A DNA stretch of 52,370 bases, from NCBI GenBank assembly GCA_003220435.1, contig QHSL01000084.1, forward strand, positions 5,842 through 58,211, in the 5' to 3' direction. Source of the stretch: Candidatus Rokuibacteriota bacterium (GTDB lineage: Bacteria; Methylomirabilota; Methylomirabilia; Rokubacteriales; CSP1-6). Shown here piece after piece: positions 2,748-52,190 of the stretch. Positions within the stretch are counted from its first letter, which is position 1, and every line of letters begins with the position of its first letter. The notes under the pieces were generated by a model that made no database searches, was not told where the DNA came from, and saw nothing but the letters and a program-made list of their open reading frames with translations. A program made the position numbers and the translations under genes.

Positions 2748-2882
2748 GTGGGCCGGGGCGGGGGCGGGCGGTGGGCCCTGCGCAACCTGTGTAGTCAGCC
2801 TCGCTAGAGCCGCCGACCGAGAGACACCCCCTGACGCACTGTGGCTAGCAGGTTGCGCGGGGCCCACCGCGCCCCGGCCCAC
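2748..2882 (+). repeat. Intergenic hairpin element, copy A
   Basis: Two long arms pair: 2748-2789 with 2849-2882. They match over 34 bases with one mismatch and an 8-base bulge in the left arm. The loop edge carries GTGTAGTCAGC at 2789-2799, followed by CTCGC, and the loop closes with GGCTAGCA. Copies B (5783-5911) and C (49985-50129) have the same plan and loop-edge motif but different arm sequences. Arms end in ACC and restart with GGT in all three. It sits between two plus-strand genes. Confidence 0.75.
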
Positions 2883-5707: not shown

Positions 5708-5782
5708 TCCCCACGCCCGCGTCCGGGCGAGGGGCGTTCGCGAGCCCAGTCTGCCGGAATGTCGCCTGGCGAAGTATCGCCT

Positions 5783-5911
5783 GTGTCGTGGGGGCGGGGA
5801 CGACCCGGCGCGACCCGTGTAGTCAGCGTTGCCGCGCCTGGAGCAGTGAAGCAGGTCACCCGGTATCGCAGCCGTCGTGGTCGCGCCGGGTCGTCCCCGC
5901 CCCCACGACAC
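5783..5911 (+). repeat. Intergenic hairpin element, copy B (perfect 33-bp arms)
   Basis: Arms 5783-5815 and 5879-5911 are perfect reverse complements over 33 bases. The 63-base loop starts with C then GTGTAGTCAGC at 5817-5827 and GTTGC, matching copies A and C. It lies between the converging glycosylase and metallo-hydrolase genes, 20 bases from the stop of the latter, so it could serve as a two-way terminator. No T-run follows either arm. Confidence 0.85.
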
Positions 5912-5931
5912 GGGCGCCGCGCCGCCGAGCG

Positions 5932-6705
5932 CTAGAGCGGATAGGGAACGAGCTCGCGCGCGATCTCGACGTCGCCGGCGAATCGAGCGCGCGCCTCGGC
6001 CGCCAGCGCGTCCACGTCGTCGTGGTACTCGGCGCCGATGTGCGCGAGGATCAGCCGCCGCACGCCTGAGCGCGCCGCGACGTCGCCGGCCTCCGCGGCC
6101 GTCGAGTGCGCGCCCACGTGGCCGCGATCGCGCTCCGAGTAGGTGGCGTCGTGAACGAGCGTGTCGGCGCCGCCGGCCAGCGCAACGACCGCGTCGCAGG
6201 GCCGCGTGTCCGACGAATAGACGACGCTCCGGCCTCGCGCCGCGTCGACCCGCACGGCGAAGTTGGGCATCGTGCCGTGCACGTTCGGCGAGGTCCGCAC
6301 GGCCAGAGGGCCCAGGTCGAAGGCGCGGGCGCCCTCGGCGAGCGCGATCGCGCGTACCGTCAGCGCGAACATCCCCGGACGCTCGAGCGTGTTGAACAGG
6401 CTGAGCAGACTCCGCAGGGGCTCCACGTGCTCCGGCCGACAGTAAATGGTCATCGGCGCCCGGCGTCCGAGCACGGACAGATTGCGGACGAGCGCAGGCA
6501 AACCGTACGCGTGGTCGGGATGAATGTGCGTGATGACGACGACGGCCAGCGCGTCGGGGTCGACGCCGGCGCGCCGGAGCTTCTGGATCGGGCTGCCCCC
6601 GCAATCGATCAGCATCGCCCCTTGCGGGACGACGAACACGATCGACGTCGTATCGCGAACGGCTGACGGGATCGAGCCCGACGTGCCGAGGAACGCGAAG
6701 TGCAT
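5932..6705 (-). CDS. MBL-fold metallo-hydrolase (RNase Z-like)
   Basis: 257-residue metallo-beta-lactamase-fold hydrolase. N-terminal FLGTSGSIPSAVRDTTS matches the RNase Z/ElaC-type entry, THIHPDHAYG near residues 59-68 is the HxHxDH zinc motif, VVYSSDTRPCD near 165-175 supplies the bridging aspartate, and LVHDATY follows. The RNase Z exosite arm is not evident, so tRNA 3' processing is only one possibility; arylsulfatase- or phosphodiesterase-like activity is equally plausible. ATG 6705 overlaps the upstream gene's TGA by one base (TGATG), so the pair is co-translated. Confidence 0.82.
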   Translation of the reverse strand: MHFAFLGTSGSIPSAVRDTTSIVFVVPQGAMLIDCGGSPIQKLRRAGVDPDALAVVVITHIHPDHAYGLPALVRNLSVLGRRAPMTIYCRPEHVEPLRSLLSLFNTLERPGMFALTVRAIALAEGARAFDLGPLAVRTSPNVHGTMPNFAVRVDAARGRSVVYSSDTRPCDAVVALAGGADTLVHDATYSERDRGHVGAHSTAAEAGDVAARSGVRRLILAHIGAEYHDDVDALAAEARARFAGDVEIARELVPYPL

Positions 6706-27000: not shown

Positions 27001-27390
27001 ATGGCCAAGACCACTCAGCTCGTCCTGTCACTTAAGTCCAAGCCCGGCGTCCTGGCCGGCATCAGCCGCGCCCTGGCCGACGCCCGCGTCAACATCCTGT
27101 CGCTGTCGGCCGCCGAGGCCGCAGGCCGCGGGAAGATCCGGATGACCGTCAGCAACCCGGTCGCGGCCAAGCGGGCGCTGCGCAAGTCGCGCGTGCGCTT
27201 TGTCGAGGAGGTCGCGTTCGCCAAGCGCCTGCGCAACAAACCCGGGTCGCTCGCGCGGCTCGTGGAGAAGCTGGCGCGCGGACGCGTCAACATCAGGTCC
27301 GCTTACGCTACTACCGCTGGCCGCGGGGGGGCCACGGTCGTCATTACCGTCGGCAACGCTGCTAAGGCTCGCAAGCTTATCGGTTCATAG
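27001..27390 (+). CDS. Tandem ACT-domain protein
   Basis: 129 residues made almost entirely of two ACT domains. First: LVLSLKSKPGVLAGISRALADA with VNILSLSAAEA near 7-40. Second: RLRNKPGSLARLVEKLARG with VNIRSAYATTAGRGGATVVI near 77-119. ACT domains bind amino acids as dimers; a protein with no catalytic domain is likely a small regulatory or amino-acid-sensing partner. ATG 27001 with GAAGGAGA 5 bases upstream. Followed 9 bases after the stop by inverted repeat D. Confidence 0.85.
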   Translation: MAKTTQLVLSLKSKPGVLAGISRALADARVNILSLSAAEAAGRGKIRMTVSNPVAAKRALRKSRVRFVEEVAFAKRLRNKPGSLARLVEKLARGRVNIRSAYATTAGRGGATVVITVGNAAKARKLIGS

Positions 27391-27399
27391 GCTCGGCGT

Positions 27400-27556
27400 C
27401 GGGGGAGGGCGGCGGGTCGCGGCGGGGGTCGCGCGACCACGCGGCACGCGTCCGCGGTCCCTTCGCGGCTGGGCTCCATCTGGGTGCGGCCCGTCCGGCG
27501 CCGCTTGGAGGAAACGGGTCGCTGCGATCCCCGCCGCCACCCGCCGCCCTCCTCCG
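27400..27556 (+). repeat. Inverted repeat D after the ACT gene
   Basis: Arms 27400-27432 and 27524-27556 pair over 33 bases with one true mismatch and two G.T (wobble if transcribed as plus-strand RNA) positions. Loop is 91 bases and lacks the GTGTAGTCAGC motif of copies A-C, though arm length and position (between converging genes) are alike. On the minus strand the loop begins AGCGACCCGTTTCCTCC. No T-run. Confidence 0.7.
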
Positions 27557-27747
27557 TCTCCGCTCTCTTCGGCGTAAGCACCAGCTTTTCAGGATTGGTA
27601 CGGCTACTGGGGCATGGCTCTCTCGCGCGGAGGCTAGCTGCGCGCGGAGCGTGCGGCGGTCGCGAGCTTCGAGCGTAGCGCGCGGCTTCCAGTGGGGCGC
27701 GGTCTGACGGCGCGCGTACCGTTCTGGCGTTGGCGCGAGTGCGTGAG
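27557..27747 (+). other. Intergenic spacer, no gene seen
   Basis: About 190 bases of GC-rich sequence between repeat D and the epoxide hydrolase stop. Rich in CGCGCG-type short palindromes; no convincing ORF, promoter or terminator. Confidence 0.45.
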
Positions 27748-48993: not shown

Positions 48994-49980
48994 ATGCCAG
49001 ACGCGCTCCTCAAGGTCCGGAACCTCAAGAAGTACTTCCCAATCCGGGGCGGCCTCTTCTCGCGGGAGATCGCGCGGGTCCACGCCGTCGACGACGTATC
49101 CTTCGACATCATGCCCGGCGAGACGCTGGGGCTCGTCGGCGAGTCCGGCTGTGGAAAGTCGACAACGGGCCGGACGATCCTCCGGCTGATCGAGGCGACG
49201 TCCGGCGAGGTCACGTTCCAGGGACGCAACGTGACGGCGCTCGACAAGCGGTCGCTGCGCCAGCTCCGGAAGGAAATGCAGATCATCTTCCAGGACCCGT
49301 ACGCGTCGCTGAATCCGCGGATGACGGTCGGCTCGATCATCGGCGAGGCGCTGGTGATCCACAAGCTCGCGCCGACGCGGAAGCAGCGCGAGGAGCGCGT
49401 CGTGCAGCTGCTGGAGACCGTGGGGCTCCTGCCCGACCACCTGCGGCGTTACCCGCACGAGTTCTCGGGCGGCCAGCGGCAGCGCATCGGGATCGCGCGG
49501 GCACTCGCGGTGAGCCCGAAGCTCATCGTGGCCGACGAGCCGGTCTCCGCCCTCGACGTCTCGATCCAGGCGCAGATCGTGAATCTATTAGAAGATCTCC
49601 AGGCGAAGTTCGGGCTCACCTATCTCTTCATTGCCCACGACCTCTCGGTCGTCGAGCACATCTCCACGCGCGTGGCCGTGATGTACCTGGGTAAGATCGT
49701 GGAGATCGCGCCGGCCAAGGAGCTCTACACCAACCCGCGGCACCCCTACACCGAAGCGCTCCTGTCGGCGGTGCCGATCCCCGACCCGACGATGAAGCGC
49801 AAGCGGATCCTGCTCGAGGGCGATGTGCCGAGCCCGATCAACCCGCCCTCCGGCTGCCGCTTCCACACGCGCTGCGCGCTCCGGGTGCCGTCGTGCTCGA
49901 CCAATGAGCAGACGCTCAAGGAGGTTTCGCCGGGGCACTGGGTCGCTTGCCAGGTGCGCACTGGCGTCGCTATCCGCTAG
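48994..49980 (+). CDS. dppF: Dipeptide/oligopeptide ABC transporter ATPase (DppF/OppF)
   Basis: 328 residues, ATG 48994. Walker [21 protein letters not shown] near 46-65, [17 protein letters not shown] near 160-176, Walker [21 protein letters not shown] near 179-198, THEN-type switch [20 protein letters not shown] near 213-232, and C-terminal [13 protein letters not shown] near 287-299. Hairpin element C begins 5 bases after its stop. Ends a three-gene plus-strand run from bamD or ltaE. Confidence 0.93.
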
Positions 49981-49984
49981 AGAC

Positions 49985-50129
49985 GGGGCGGGGCGAGACG
50001 GCTGGGGGGGCCCCTGTGGGACCACGCTAGCTACCTGGTGCGAGCGGTCGAAGCCCCTACTTCCTGGCTCTCGCAACGCTGACTACACGGGTCCCATAGG
50101 GGCCCACCCCAGCCGCCTCGCCCCGCCCC
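49985..50129 (-). repeat. Intergenic hairpin element, copy C (inverted orientation)
   Basis: Arms 49985-50023 and 50090-50129 pair over about 39 bases with two substitutions, one A/G and one G/A type, and a one-base slip. Read on the minus strand, the loop begins with C then GTGTAGTCAGC (50078-50088 complement) and GTTGC, and ends GTAGCTAGCGT before GGT, matching copies A and B. It starts 5 bases after the dppF stop in a convergent intergenic region. Confidence 0.85.
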
Positions 50130-50556
50130 GGTTCCCCTGGTCGCGCTGCCAGGCGCACGTAGCGGCGACCCGGCGTCCCGTTTTGGCTGCGTTCCTGAGT
50201 GTCTTGGTTGCCTTGTCCGGCACACTTGAGAGCGACGCGATGTCTCTGGCGTCGTGAGAGCGATGCGTACTGGGTGGTGGTGTCGCGCCCCGAGACGATG
50301 CCATGATCGTGAGGGGGGTCCGTGAGAGCAAAGAAGCCGAGCTAGTGACTGGGTGACTCAAACACGGTGCCGTGTCTTCGGAGCGCGACGCCGTAGACAC
50401 GAGCGGCGCCCGGCGCGCCCAAGTTCGTGCCGGAAGTGGAGTCTGCAAGGCCAAGACTGAGGCCGCGCGTGACGGGACCTCGCTGCGGACCGACGTGCTC
50501 CTTGCGCGGGCACCAGGGTTCTGGCGCTTCGCCCCTGGCGTGGATGCCACATGCGG
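50130..50556 (+). other. Long intergenic stretch, no gene recognised
   Basis: About 430 bases between hairpin C and the response-regulator stop. Contains short hairpins such as CACGG-tg-CCGTG near 50365-50376. A 155-codon minus-strand open frame covers much of it but its Ser/Arg/Thr-rich sequence, overlap with hairpin C and lack of known motifs argue against a gene. No promoter or RNA recognised. Confidence 0.45.
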
Positions 50557-52116
50557 TTACGACGCGAGAAATTCTCGGGCGTGAATGCCGTAGCGCTTCA
50601 TCTTGAGATGCAAAGTCTTGTAATCCGTCCGGAGGATCCGCGCCGCCTCAGTCTTGTTCCCGCGTGCGGCTCGAAGCGCCTGCCGGCTCATCTGCCGCTC
50701 AGCCTCGGCGGCGGCCCTGTCCGCGCGCTGCTTCATCGACGCTCTCGCTGGCAGGGGATTTCCTTCGACGGAGGATTCGGCGGTGCCCTCTACGGGAAGG
50801 GGCAGGAGGTGCATCGGGCCGATCTCATCCGAGCTCAGGAGCACGGCGCGCCGGATGACGTTCCGGAGTTCCCGGACGTTACCCGGCCAGGAATGCCGGA
50901 GGAGAAGCTGGACTGCCTCCGCAGAGATTCCGCGGACAGGCCGCCGAAGCTCCATGCTCGCTTCCGCCAGGAACCGCTTGGCTAGGTCGAGAATGTCGTC
51001 CCGTCGCTCTCGGAGTGGGGGCACGGTGATGACGAATTCGGTCAGACGGTAATAGAGATCCTGTCGGAACCGGCTCGCCCGCATCTCCCGCTCGAGCGGC
51101 ACGTTGGACGTCGCGATGATCCGGACGTCGACCGGGACCGCGCGTCTCCCTCCGAGAACCTGGACCTGTCGCTCCTGCAACACTCGGAGGAGCTTGGACT
51201 GGGTCGTCATGGGCAAGTTGACGATCTCGTCAAGGAACAGGCTTCCGCCCTCGGCAAGCTCGAAGTGCCCTTCCTTCCGCCGGTCGGCGCCGGTGAACGC
51301 GCCCTTCTCGTAGCCGAACAGCTCCGATTCGATTAGCGTGTCGGGAATGGCGCCGCAGTCCAGAGCGATGAAGGGCTTCTCGCGGCGGGTGCTGAGCTGG
51401 TGGATGGCCCGCGCGACGAGCTCTTTTCCGGTACCGGTCTCCCCCTGGATCAGGATCGTGAAAGTGGATTCAGCCACTTGCTCGATTTGCTGGATCACCT
51501 GCTGGATCTCTGGGCTGAGACCGATGAGCCACACGAGCGCGCCGTGCTCGCGTAGCTGGCGCCTGAGCTCCTCCACGTCGGCGCCGAGCTGCTGATACTC
51601 GAGGGCTCGCCGGACGGCGAGCCCAATTGCTTCGGGGCGCACCGGTTTCGTGAGGTAGTCGGACGCCCCGAGCCGCATGGTCTCGACGGCCGAAGGGATG
51701 TCGCCGTACCCGGTGAGCACGATCACCGGGAGCCGCGGGGCGAGCTCCCGGAGCCTCCGCAGAGTCTCCATCCCGTCGAGCTCTGGCATCCGAATGTCCA
51801 GGATCGCGCTCGAAAAGGTCCTCGACGCCACGTGGTCCAAGGCTGTCAGGCCGCTCGCCGCTGTGACGACCTTGAATCCCTCGATTTGCAGGGCGTCGGT
51901 CAGGAGCGCCCGGACAGACGGCTCGTCATCGACGACCAGAACCGTGGGCGTTGCCCGGCCTCTCGAGCCCGGCGCCGACGGCGCGGTCGCCGCGTCTGCG
52001 CTGCTCTCTGCGGATTCGGGTATCCCTGGAGATTCGTTGGGGCCGCTGCGAGGGAACGAAAGTGATCCCGACCCTGACGTGTTCGTCTCGACAACTCCCT
52101 TCCTTCGGTAGTCCGG
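50557..52116 (-). CDS. Sigma-54-dependent response regulator (NtrC family), start uncertain
   Basis: NtrC-type regulator. Receiver domain: [20 protein letters not shown] (acidic pocket), phospho-aspartate in [13 protein letters not shown], and lysine in [13 protein letters not shown]+ domain: Walker [20 protein letters not shown] in [20 protein letters not shown], Walker [14 protein letters not shown]. Fis-type HTH at the C-terminus ([20 protein letters not shown]). Stop at 50557. The frame is open back to the TAG at 52117-52119, but no ATG, GTG or TTG occurs upstream of the acidic pocket in that frame; candidates are CTG 51939, or a non-canonical start just after the riboswitch. Well spaced Shine-Dalgarno AAGGA precedes TTG 52094 in another frame, so an indel is possible. 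Confidence 0.85.
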
Positions 52117-52190
52117 CTATCAGGCGTGCCGCCTGACCCGTGGCTTTGCGTCCCCGCCTCGCGGCGGGTTTGCCCTTATCGGGAGGAGCT
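52095..52190 (-). promoter_or_regulatory. Cyclic-di-GMP class I (GEMM) riboswitch
   Basis: On the minus strand: AAGGGCAAACC (complement of 52167-52177), stem CGCC-GCGA-GGCG with a GNRA tetraloop, GGGACGCAAAGCC (complement of 52142-52154), stem AGGC-ggca-GCCT-like, then ATAGCCGGACTACCG. Order, conserved strings, GNRA loop and spacing match the GEMM-I aptamer. Just downstream is AAGGAAGGGAG; upstream CTCCC (near 52181-52185) can pair with GGGAG at 52095-52099, so ligand binding could expose or hide the ribosome site of the following regulator gene. Confidence 0.9.

Follow-up and report, generated by a model that had tools for sequence, protein, structure and literature searches.

Long intergenic hairpins with arms that change in sequence and still pair, located mostly in fixed polarity 0–30 nt behind the stop codons of ordinary genes, were found as a multi-copy family in Rokubacteria, and this perfect pairing amid sequence change suggests a new kind of gene-end signal. 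The reading that we prefer, with a probability of about 0.5, is a lineage-specific cis-acting mRNA 3'-end element. Most likely it is a gene-end element that acts like a stop-codon-proximal REP or a terminator and is a member of neither family.

The window, which means the whole analysed stretch of 52,370 nucleotides, contains three hairpins of a first class (A, B, and C) and one hairpin of a second class, scored with the covariance models R2 and R3, respectively.

2748..2882 (-): class I hairpin A (R2, 72.4 bits)
2789..2799 (+): conserved loop-edge motif of A
5778..5916 (-): class I hairpin B (R2, 76.6 bits); mRNA sense is the - strand, on which the TAG stop of the metallo-beta-lactamase gene precedes it
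5817..5827 (+): conserved loop-edge motif of B, GTGTAGTCAGC on the strand read by the first-pass annotation and GCTGACTACAC in mRNA sense
5932..6705 (-): metallo-beta-lactamase gene (Lactamase_B_2) with the TAG stop adjoining B
27001..27390 (+): gene with ACT domains, its TAG stop adjoining the class II hairpin
27391..27562 (+): class II hairpin (R3, 117 bits; arm about 39, loop 91 nt), its stem starting 3 nt past that TAG; marked by GACCACGCGGCACGCG...GGCTGGGCTCCATC...GGAAACGGGTC, class I motif absent
48994..49980 (+): oligopeptide ABC ATPase gene (ABC_tran + oligo_HPY) with the TAG stop adjoining C
49984..50130 (+): class I hairpin C (R2, 68.6 bits); mRNA sense is the + strand, and it starts 3 nt past that TAG
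50078..50088 (-): conserved loop-edge motif of C
52103..52183 (-): c-di-GMP-I-GGC riboswitch (68.5 bits, E 3.5e-14)

The three class I hairpins had been described in the first-pass annotation, and they were recovered at the claimed places with the arm ends ACC...GGT, loops of 59–66 nt, and arms that differ in sequence and still pair. For C, gapless detection gave a loop of 73–85 nt owing to mismatches in the stem. In isolation, the folding energies of A, B, and C were -91, -100, and -112 kcal/mol (z-scores -4.8, -10.5, and -9.8), and none of 200 shuffles folded as well. Other points of that description also had to be revised. Hairpin A is exceptional in placement, as it is flanked by two tandem + strand genes with no adjoining stop codon in the usual polarity of the family. 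In addition, the strand taken as sense is actually the antisense of the neighbouring gene, and the strand presumably transcribed is its reverse complement. Polarity, stop-codon spacing, orthologous retention, and the second class are new relative to the first description.

Copy number and range of the class I family

The genome-wide motif search that had been proposed revealed the exact 11-mer GTGTAGTCAGC eight times in the 5.4 Mb genome, compared with no occurrence of the reversed-pattern control, and each of the eight sites lay at the loop edge of a long stem, the arms differing in sequence from site to site. Within the window, the 11-mer with two mismatches occurred at chance level, so that the signal is the exact motif together with the stem. 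A further 400 kb of this genome, chosen from stretches that contain no known class I copy, had few long stems, and those with an arm of at least 30 were all intergenic and next to stop codons. Model R2 detected 19 class I copies in this genome and 7–32 per genome among the nine genomes of the genus, while the long hairpins of the family as a whole number about 20 to 50 per genome. Two class I copies in the same orientation, 193 bp apart on one contig (L086 and L266, G005:C47), look like a local duplication, the first lacking a matching 3' arm.

R2 also matched several further genera within the same Rokubacteria family (Methylomirabilota), and none of the 38 phylum members examined from outside that family yielded a class I copy; class I is confined to one family of Rokubacteria. 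In a separate contig collection, the stem-bearing hosts were titled Candidatus Rokuibacteriota, and the sole stem outside Rokubacteria came from a single scaffold that was labelled Actinobacteria and bore a similar code for its soil sample. An occurrence in other phyla was rejected, as the pattern matches there were a 16-mer near chance level with no stem, and a phage-borne element was likewise rejected, as the pattern matches in viral contigs fitted the covariance models unconvincingly.

At the Rfam gathering threshold, no family was assigned to the hairpins of the window, and a relaxed search of seven loci against Rfam 15 returned only eukaryotic and viral hairpin models. One of these matches, EBv-sisRNA-2 on locus L002, scored 42.5 bits against a cut-off of 41.8 and was judged a nonspecific stem match. 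A literature search for noncoding RNA in Rokubacteria found no publication. As far as the searched libraries and literature show, the element family is undescribed, and it constitutes a large, well-delimited family absent from Rfam that combines unusually strong paired evolution with a strict stop-codon-proximal place.

Paired evolution of the stems

Covariation was analysed in an alignment of 59 class I copies, almost all of which came from the nine genomes of this genus. The common stem contained 97.6% standard pairs, and double-sided change occurred in 17 of its 19 pairs. Doubly changed cells numbered 262 compared with 66 in shuffles, none of 500 shuffles being as high, and the covariation signal was lost once the partner was slid by one column. 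This covariance analysis bears out the earlier proposal of a multi-copy family with real covariation that extends to relatives; further copies exist, and they are not identical sequences lacking compensatory changes, since orthologous copies differ by paired changes at one site. Stems at one gene in different species differed mainly by paired substitutions, as exemplified by the usp orthologs with six two-sided and no one-sided changes. Throughout, the stems were near-perfect over 30–55 bp, the loop length was almost constant, and the loop-edge motif was kept. Between class I copies, the arms were not conserved in sequence, and the loops of different loci were recognisably related at their edges; the nearest loop was that of the ortholog in 31 of 56 cases. 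A guide-like variable loop was considered and rejected, because the interior of the loop drifts at about the same rate as the flanking sequence.

The first-pass view of these changes as selection for the fold as RNA goes beyond what they prove, because template-switch correction of palindromes can also yield paired changes, and the mismatch types described below speak against selection on the mRNA strand. Template switching is reported to create, maintain, and repair perfect stems (PMC8794818), which lends weight to a palindrome working at the DNA level, either as a site at gene ends for a protein specific to structure or sequence or as a transcription or replication boundary, with arms held complementary by template switching and no role for an RNA fold. 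The scarcity of G.U pairs (65 among 2777 pairs in the stem interior, counted on the strand of the first-pass annotation), the prevalence of paired changes between most orthologs, and the outermost pairs of the 40–50 bp stems, which stay paired even where stop-codon bases belong to the stem, all agree with such a palindrome, but it is difficult to account for the fixed polarity and tight stop spacing unless transcription or translation is involved, and the loop edge is conserved and asymmetric; a purely DNA-level function appears unlikely. For the preferred mRNA 3'-end element, pairing would probably be kept partly by selection and partly by template-switch correction of the palindrome in DNA, and the latter would explain the fast sequence turnover with intact pairing. 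Because the orthologous stems have changed much of their sequence with pairing near perfect, the family offers a natural case for telling RNA selection from DNA template switching as the cause of compensatory change.

Position at gene ends and comparison with known elements

The positions of 77 distinct class I copies were analysed relative to genes predicted with a codon log-odds caller for which these sequences served as training data. For 63 of the 77 copies, the gene to the right of the hairpin lies on the strand opposite to the motif, and a median of 7–8 nt separates the hairpin base from the stop codon of that gene. The hairpin was closer to this stop than to the other neighbour in 54 of 59 cases (p = 2e-11), and a divergent gene context was found for 2 of the 77. 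Read in mRNA sense, the order is the gene, its stop, about 10 nt, a G-rich arm, a loop ending in ..AACSCTGACTACA, and a C-rich arm; some intergenic regions contain two head-to-head hairpins.

The host genes are varied and ordinary, including hrcA, ftsZ-like, zapA, nikR, pilB-like, G6PD, MBL, and rubrerythrin genes. The element behind a usp-domain gene was present in all nine genomes of the genus (g1), one copy being broken, and also in genera g4 and g14, while that at hrcA was present in seven of the nine and in g22, lying between hrcA and a TATAAT just ahead of grpE. The broken usp copy (L309 / L270, G004:C671), which has lost most of its 5' arm and kept the loop-edge motif, is a decaying copy. 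The TATAAT of the hrcA-grpE intergenic regions (L272–L301), about 10–20 nt upstream of the grpE ATG and conserved through much of the family, suggests that grpE has a putative promoter of its own, from which the transcript would be nearly leaderless. A 6S RNA gene (L008 2512-2695, +) lies about 1 kb away from the zapA hairpin.

Taken together, the polarity, the stop spacing, and the long association with the same genes indicate a role at the message end, and "transcript-end structure" fits best among the readings offered by the first-pass annotation. Several observations count against a 3'-end role. The usual place is not occupied by 14 of the 77 copies, among them A in the window, whose likely ortholog (L058) is also exceptional in position; the hairpin-bearing genes are a small subset of all genes; and hrcA lacks the element in this very genome and in G003.

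As with intrinsic (Rho-independent) terminators, a G+C-rich hairpin stands right after the gene, between transcription units. The Rokubacterial hairpins differ in lacking a U-tract (T makes up 20% of the 12 nt after the stem, and TTTT occurs in 1 of 77 class I copies), in their loop of 60–90 nt with a conserved motif, and in their far longer stems. Considering that the U-tract is absent and the loop edge is conserved, a factor is favoured over a plain intrinsic terminator, and a protein reading the loop edge would probably be involved. Upon transcription of the gene, the 3' untranslated end is expected to fold into the long hairpin, its base falling inside or beside the footprint of the terminating ribosome, which so stable a structure this close to the stop must meet; in E. 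coli, ribosomes stall at hairpins that lie within 15 nt of a stop codon (Liang 2015, cited in PMC12306157). The hairpin may then define or protect the 3' end of the message and set it apart from the next transcription unit. The histone mRNA 3' stem-loop offers an analogy, and an analogy only: eukaryotic, short, and sequence-conserved, it marks where a group of mRNAs ends, and a protein reads it.

The REP/PU elements of E. coli, above all those within 15 nt of a stop codon, are likewise palindromes just behind stop codons and are able to stall the terminating ribosome (PMC12306157, citing Liang 2015); the stop-codon-proximal, rarely divergent placement of REP/REPIN-RAYT elements recurs in the hairpins. 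REPs themselves are short; their stem sequence is conserved, they carry a GTAG/CGTC tag, and RAYT transposases spread them. The stems here extend over 30–55 bp without conserved sequence, and the motif sits at the edge of a loop of about 60 nt; no conserved palindrome with a GTAG/CGTC tag at the stem foot was found, since the arms covary and GTAG lies at the loop edge. The Y1 transposase (PF01797) was detected in none of the nine g1 genomes and in none of the genera g4, g5, g14, and g22, and its absence from all multi-copy class I genera rules out REP/RAYT membership. ERIC and NEMIS-type MITEs are intergenic palindromes of 100–200 bp that fold into long hairpins in transcripts, with conserved sequence and TA target duplications. 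The Rokubacterial hairpins resemble them as long intergenic palindromes and share neither the conserved sequence nor the target duplications, the edge direct repeats being 3.9% compared with 5.0% in shuffled sequence; a MITE was ruled out based on the missing duplications and the differing arms.

These results also weigh on the REP/MITE-like mobile element once proposed for the hairpins, that is, a non-autonomous element preferring gene ends. The dispersed multi-copy distribution, the loops related at their edges between loci, and the variable presence at hrcA are what mobility would leave behind, but in addition to the absent transposase, the absent target-site duplication, and the unconserved arms, orthologous loci keep the hairpin across genera with the ortholog often carrying the nearest loop, and viral contigs hold no convincing match, which makes this origin quite improbable.

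Strand asymmetry, TAG stops, and further loop classes

Two patterns remain unexplained by the preferred 3'-end element, the wobble asymmetry on the "wrong" strand and the TAG stops of this genome. In the mRNA strand, stem mismatches are A.C rather than G.U at 65:22 in class I and 36:13 in class II. On the strand read by the first-pass annotation, G.U thus exceeds A.C at 65:22 (p = 4e-6, a value that is too small because the copies are related by descent), with class II in the same direction. Selection on an mRNA stem would give the opposite direction, which counts against the 3'-end reading. The asymmetry is pronounced in tandem contexts and gone in convergent ones (15:12 and 9:9); mutation with a strand bias, or a template strand that is itself functional, could account for it. 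Of the genes examined in this genome, all 15 that precede a hairpin in the right orientation (14 of class I, one of class II) stop at TAG, compared with 14 of 44 other terminal genes. The congener G007 does not follow this pattern, and class II overall has little or no TAG bias (10 TAG of 20). Pyrrolysine/UAG recoding was rejected as the cause, PylB not being found over the cut-off.

A folded functional strand antisense to the neighbouring gene, acting as an antisense ncRNA or a single-strand DNA hairpin, would accord with the G.U excess on that strand and has a precedent in integron attC sites, which vary in sequence and recombine as the folded bottom strand (PMC2727003). The hairpins are similar to attC in their place behind a stop, variable stem, large variable terminal loop, and gene-fixed polarity. 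Moreover, this genome encodes an integron-type integrase (L463, G000:C83:3681-4625; TIGR02249, 466 bits, cut-off 265), as do 24 of the 57 genomes of the family over the cut-off. Against such a strand stand the loss of the bias in convergent contexts and the 8–20 nt, with no promoter motif, that several tandem copies leave for an antisense promoter. The attC boxes R' (GTTRRRY) and R'' (RYYYAAC) occurred at the base of 0 and 1 of 77 copies (0.38 and 0.27 in shuffled sequence), and the hairpin-bearing genes are vertically kept housekeeping genes rather than cassettes. The integrase contigs carry no such hairpins, nor did a strict box search find canonical attC on them, and the integrase distribution does not track the hairpins, which occur in genomes without IntI, while IntI occurs in genomes without class I. 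With no R boxes and an integrase neither linked nor co-distributed, attC membership was rejected, and a functional antisense strand is considered very unlikely.

Class II, as detected by model R3, has at least 30 copies in this genome and up to at least 35 per genome. Of 29 copies, 20 lie behind a stop in fixed polarity on the core strand, and the window hairpin has GACCACGCGGCACGCG..GGCTGGGCTCCATC..GGGAACGGGTC in common with five others. R3 weakly recognises B and C, on the strand opposite to that of the first-pass annotation, probably because the frame GACC-ACG ... ACG-GGTC is common to both classes. In genera g6, g13, g16, and g18, the stem at the usp gene measures 32–47 bp and carries yet another loop of 74–77 nt. 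A tentative alternative that we hold to be unlikely is a lineage-wide gene-end system of unfamiliar kind, in which a trans-acting factor would read the stop-fixed hairpin at chosen genes, the loops (class I, class II, and the 74–77 nt type) would be interchangeable modules, and it may even be the template strand that functions, as antisense RNA or single-strand DNA, a role of that strand being hinted at by the wobble asymmetry. The family makes the control of gene ends testable across an entire group of uncultured soil bacteria, the Rokubacteria.

Shorter hairpins with small loops were also observed at the same places, three at the hrcA 3' end in g4 (L283, L285, and L289) and one at usp in g11 (L322). 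Their loops have GACACTC in common (e.g., TCTGCTCGGAACGACACTCGCTC) and, judged by this shared motif, perhaps represent a third loop class.
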